A stretch of 47,543 nucleotides of DNA, from assembly GCA_012517935.1 (NCBI GenBank), contig JAAYUA010000089.1:1-47543 (forward strand), in the 5' to 3' direction. Below are positions 4,024 to 6,648 of the stretch, one piece after another. The stretch comes from Acetobacter sp. (lineage in GTDB: Bacteria; Pseudomonadota; Alphaproteobacteria; Acetobacterales; Acetobacteraceae). A model generated the notes under the pieces. It was not told the origin of the DNA and made no database searches. It was given only the letters and a program-made list of their open reading frames with translations. The position numbers were made by a program, and so were the translations under genes. Each line of letters begins with the position of its first letter. Positions within the stretch are counted from its first letter, which is position 1.

Positions 4024-6648
<2,625 letters not shown>

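Follow-up and report, generated by a model that had tools for sequence, protein, structure and literature searches.

A lone in-frame TGA in kdsA of an Acetobacter draft genome, probably a wrong or mixed base

The kdsA gene of this Acetobacter strain, a normally essential cell-envelope gene encoding Kdo-8-phosphate synthase, is interrupted once, by an in-frame TGA that takes the place of a conserved glycine, and its frame is otherwise whole. We infer that the stop is a wrong base in the draft consensus, or a position at which the reads disagree, and assign this reading a probability of about 55%. Three lines of evidence make it the likeliest: kdsA is a single-copy gene kept throughout the order sample, the tested partners of its pathway are intact, and the rest of the protein shows little decay. 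The species would then keep kdsA intact, and the stop would be no working feature; were the base as written, translation would stop once 178 of the 280 residues were made, and the complete enzyme would not be produced. Overall, the evidence favors an error or a mutation of very recent date over a novel biological mechanism. The window analyzed is the whole of contig C161 (47,543 nucleotides). It belongs to a draft assembly of 232 contigs and 2,922,786 bases, whose completeness is rated at 100% and contamination at 1.73%. Among named genomes of the collection searched, which may lack this record, Acetobacter pasteurianus and A. pomorum come closest, at 78% identity, in keeping with a probable assignment to Acetobacter.

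Frame reading from the ATG confirms the in-frame TGA announced by the original prediction (Table 1) as well as its claim of a single lesion: with the internal stop read as X, the frame covers 281 positions before the expected terminal TGA and has no other defect. The predicted length of 282 codons is right for the intact gene, provided that the final stop is counted. The identification as kdsA also holds. When the two pieces are searched separately, both match the 273-position profile NF003543 (3-deoxy-8-phosphooctulonate synthase) in order, with one position falling on the stop. Scored as a whole across the stop, the frame obtains 395.5 bits against TIGR01362, above the cut-off of 314 bits, while the pieces alone reach 235.1 and 144.3 bits, each below it; no unbroken open frame spans the whole domain, which the TGA divides. 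The gene therefore resembles the KdsA family (TIGR01362, NF003543, PF00793) in that both pieces align in order with one position missing, and differs from it by an in-frame TGA that is absent among the matches listed for the 149 further genomes sampled from the order. The frame upstream, which we take to be pyrG, is intact, and at locus L032 of Acetobacter pasteurianus a similar frame of 544 residues likewise ends over the kdsA start. A bacterial class A RNase P RNA (window 7831-8252, plus strand, 327.8 bits) sits between kdsA and frames resembling a division and cell wall cluster.

The residue lost to the stop is, as predicted, a conserved glycine: it is present in 29/29 aligned same-genus KdsA sequences (29 of the 36 found) and in both PDB chains with an alignment listed (2 of 50 matched). 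The codon at this site is two bases away from TGA in 28 of these 29 relatives and one base away in the remaining one. The proposed origin by a single-base change from GGA to TGA is possible, but it requires the species to have carried here a codon that the genus seldom has at this position.

Table 1. Features of the kdsA region and candidate interrupted genes; positions are those of the window unless a locus is named.
Feature	Location	Strand	Evidence
pyrG-like frame (putative), intact, 4-base overlap with the kdsA start	4183..5817	+	frame reading
kdsA (Kdo-8-phosphate synthase) frame, interrupted once	5814..6659	+	ATG at 5814; PF00793 match 5859-6644 with 1 TGA inside
kdsA upstream piece, 178 residues	5814..6347	+	NF003543 positions 5-171, E 1.2e-75
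In-frame TGA at the conserved glycine position of kdsA	6348..6350	+	frame reading from ATG 5814
kdsA downstream piece, 102 residues	6351..6656	+	NF003543 positions 173-272, E 2.3e-45
Expected terminal TGA of kdsA	6657..6659	+	frame reading
PfkB-family kinase gene cut by a lone in-frame TAG (7627-7629)	L175 7366-8367, contig C159 of the same genome	-	pieces match PF00294 at 31-203 and 222-297
Family 9 glycosyltransferase-like gene, possibly cut by a lone TAG (3771-3773)	L200 3051-4115, relative G022	-	pieces hit TibC_1st and Glyco_transf_9
Signal past stop, no family on one or both sides	L158 14214-15482, same genome		codon scan
Signal past stop, no family on one or both sides	L162 5470-6486, same genome		codon scan
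Signal past stop, no family on one or both sides	L162 18716-19372, same genome		codon scan
Signal past stop, no family on one or both sides	L160 1402-1941, same genome		codon scan

The gene is widely kept among relatives, and among the matches listed the stop is confined to this assembly. Two samples were searched: 61 genomes (the strain itself, 36 of the same genus and 24 of the same class), and 150 genomes drawn evenly from the order, the strain included. In the first, kdsA was matched in 56 genomes, namely the strain, 36/36 of the genus and 19/24 of the class, and only the strain's own copy contains a stop; the comparison with relatives called for by the original prediction thus returned 36 uninterrupted genes out of 36. 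Outside the order kdsA is not universal, five of the 24 same-class genomes giving no match, which is counted against a wrong or mixed base. In the order sample the gene is matched in all 150 genomes, in 149 of them above the family cut-off. The sole exception, G136, has a piece starting at base 6 of its contig, and a second kdsA match exists in this genome beyond the matches listed. The stop is shared by 0/36 same-genus genomes and, among the matches listed, by 0/149 others of the order. Given this retention, a true loss would be exceptional within the order sample.

A second copy could have covered a recent loss, as the original prediction envisaged. This possibility is not supported: the draft genome contains one DAHP_synth_1 (PF00793) match and one kdsA match, each profile search returning a single hit. 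Regarding the pathway partners, kdsB (TIGR00466) and waaA, identified by its Kdo transferase domain (PF04413), are each represented by one match over the cut-off and free of stops; kdsD/kpsF (TIGR00393) has one such match, together with two weak partial ones below the cut-off. A search for a Kdo hydroxylase found no match in this genome, and none in the control genomes either.

Sequence comparison reveals no clear decay in the rest of the KdsA protein. Leaving the stop out, it differs at 2 of 153 otherwise invariant columns, against 0 to 2 per relative (n=29). Of its residues, 15 occur in no other aligned row, and five of these lie past the stop; a different divergent row has 21 unique residues, seven of which lie past the stop position. 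Over pairs that differ by more than 15%, the ratio of amino-acid divergence after the stop to that before it averages 1.32 and ranks first among 30 sequences (range of the others 0.86-1.23). This value, a weak hint, would fit a slightly relaxed constraint on the downstream piece, and is counted against a wrong or mixed base.

The background of interrupted genes was estimated by a scan for coding signal continuing past a stop, to which frameshifts are invisible. In 646,662 bases of the draft genome (22%), 30 candidates, kdsA included, were obtained among 6,720 stops; a relative assembled in four contigs (G022) yielded 18 candidates among 3,923 stops in 400,000 bases, about the same density. The pieces were searched for 10 of the 29 other candidates of the first genome and 8 of the 18 of the second, all with a first start codon at least 7 codons past the stop; candidates with nearer starts were left out, as was the fitting candidate L158 7846. 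The 10 comprise one cut gene, encoding a PfkB-type kinase, five pairs of neighboring genes of different families and four cases without a family on one or both sides. The eight from the relative comprise one possible cut glycosyltransferase, whose two domains (TibC_1st and Glyco_transf_9) are presumably parts of one protein, four pairs of neighboring genes and three undecided cases. No NCBIfam model of a named kinase scores the PfkB-type kinase above its cut-off; in 22/22 same-genus genomes searched, the downstream part of this kinase finds its best match within an uninterrupted frame of 281 to 528 residues. To note, in genome G012 (contig C18, 34270-34561) the last residues of this kinase match in a second stretch that contains a TAA and may reflect a frameshift close to the gene end. 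Within family matches of the draft genome (matches, not genes), stops are found in 0/49 ABC and 0/31 MFS hits, and a generally stop-ridden assembly finds no support in these 80 matches.

Lone stops in conserved genes are thus rare but present, and their rate does not separate error from mutation. The fragmentation of the draft into 232 contigs and the second gene with a lone stop, found in a 22% sample, are counted in favor of a wrong or mixed base. The stop-free ABC and MFS matches are counted against it, as in-gene stops are not frequent in this assembly, and so is the possible stop-cut gene in 400 kb of the four-contig relative, which suggests that true pseudogenes may be about as common. 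The kdsA case resembles known lone-stop pseudogenes and draft-genome consensus errors in having one stop, in a frame otherwise whole, in one assembly only, and departs from them in striking a gene kept in every genome of the order sample.

Sequencing error and very recent loss, both put forward by the original prediction, remain and are not told apart by the present data. The second of these, a genuine nonsense mutation of very recent date, whether of laboratory or natural origin and clonal in the sequenced strain, is a tentative alternative and the less probable of the two; the strain would have to tolerate little or no Kdo-8-phosphate synthase. Such tolerance is conceivable: some Gram-negative bacteria can live without Kdo, and growth without it is reportedly the subject of a study in E. 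coli. The absence of any other lesion in the frame, the PfkB-type kinase gene cut in the same genome and the top-ranking divergence of the downstream piece are all compatible with a mutation of this kind. It sits poorly, however, with the match in 150/150 genomes of the order, with the lack of a second copy, with the intact state of kdsB, kdsD and waaA, which depend on the KdsA product, and with the protein's lack of clear decay.

Explanations in which a full enzyme is still made fare worse. Stop-codon readthrough or local recoding, also among the options of the original prediction, would account for the conservation of the frame on both sides of the stop, but is highly unlikely. ARAGORN calls a tRNA at 44 of the 45 tRNA hits of the genome, and no anticodon among these corresponds to TGA, TAG or TAA; the 45th, the weakest at 31.3 bits, receives no call and is a general tRNA according to Rfam, and the list is incomplete, lacking for instance Ile gat and Ala tgc. 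The tRNA-Trp has the anticodon CCA and, if the numbering we assume is correct, no known suppressor change in its D-arm. TGA is the commonest stop of long open frames (316/453 in the 22% sample), and T follows in 104 of those, as in kdsA: the kdsA stop is an ordinary stop in an ordinary setting. Moreover, the other cut gene contains a TAG, so that one suppressor would not explain both, and relatives have no stop among the matches listed. Neither a suppressor tRNA nor general recoding is supported by anticodons or stop usage. It is scarcely credible that KdsA is made in two pieces, the downstream one restarting at an internal start codon and the halves assembling. A start codon does lie 7 codons past the stop and each piece is well conserved; but no clear ribosome site precedes it, as judged by eye, a restart there would cost 7 residues, and no relative in the 61-genome or 150-genome samples shows this arrangement. 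More generally, it is improbable that the stop is both real and fixed in the species as a whole. This would imply an outer membrane devoid of Kdo and Ko, or else a KdsA produced by readthrough or as two pieces, and the strain would stand alone among the 150 genomes sampled from the order in having such a stop.

The lipid A of A. pasteurianus is described as carrying Ko (PMC8036547), and Kdo2-lipid A is described as essential for survival under normal growth conditions (PMC3967223); the literature excerpts consulted contain nothing on whether acetic acid bacteria need kdsA. If the kdsA stop is a wrong or mixed base, as favored here, the consequence is an annotation correction. If it is real, the strain would represent a naturally Kdo-deficient acetic acid bacterium, and could help to establish what lipopolysaccharide core such cells require.
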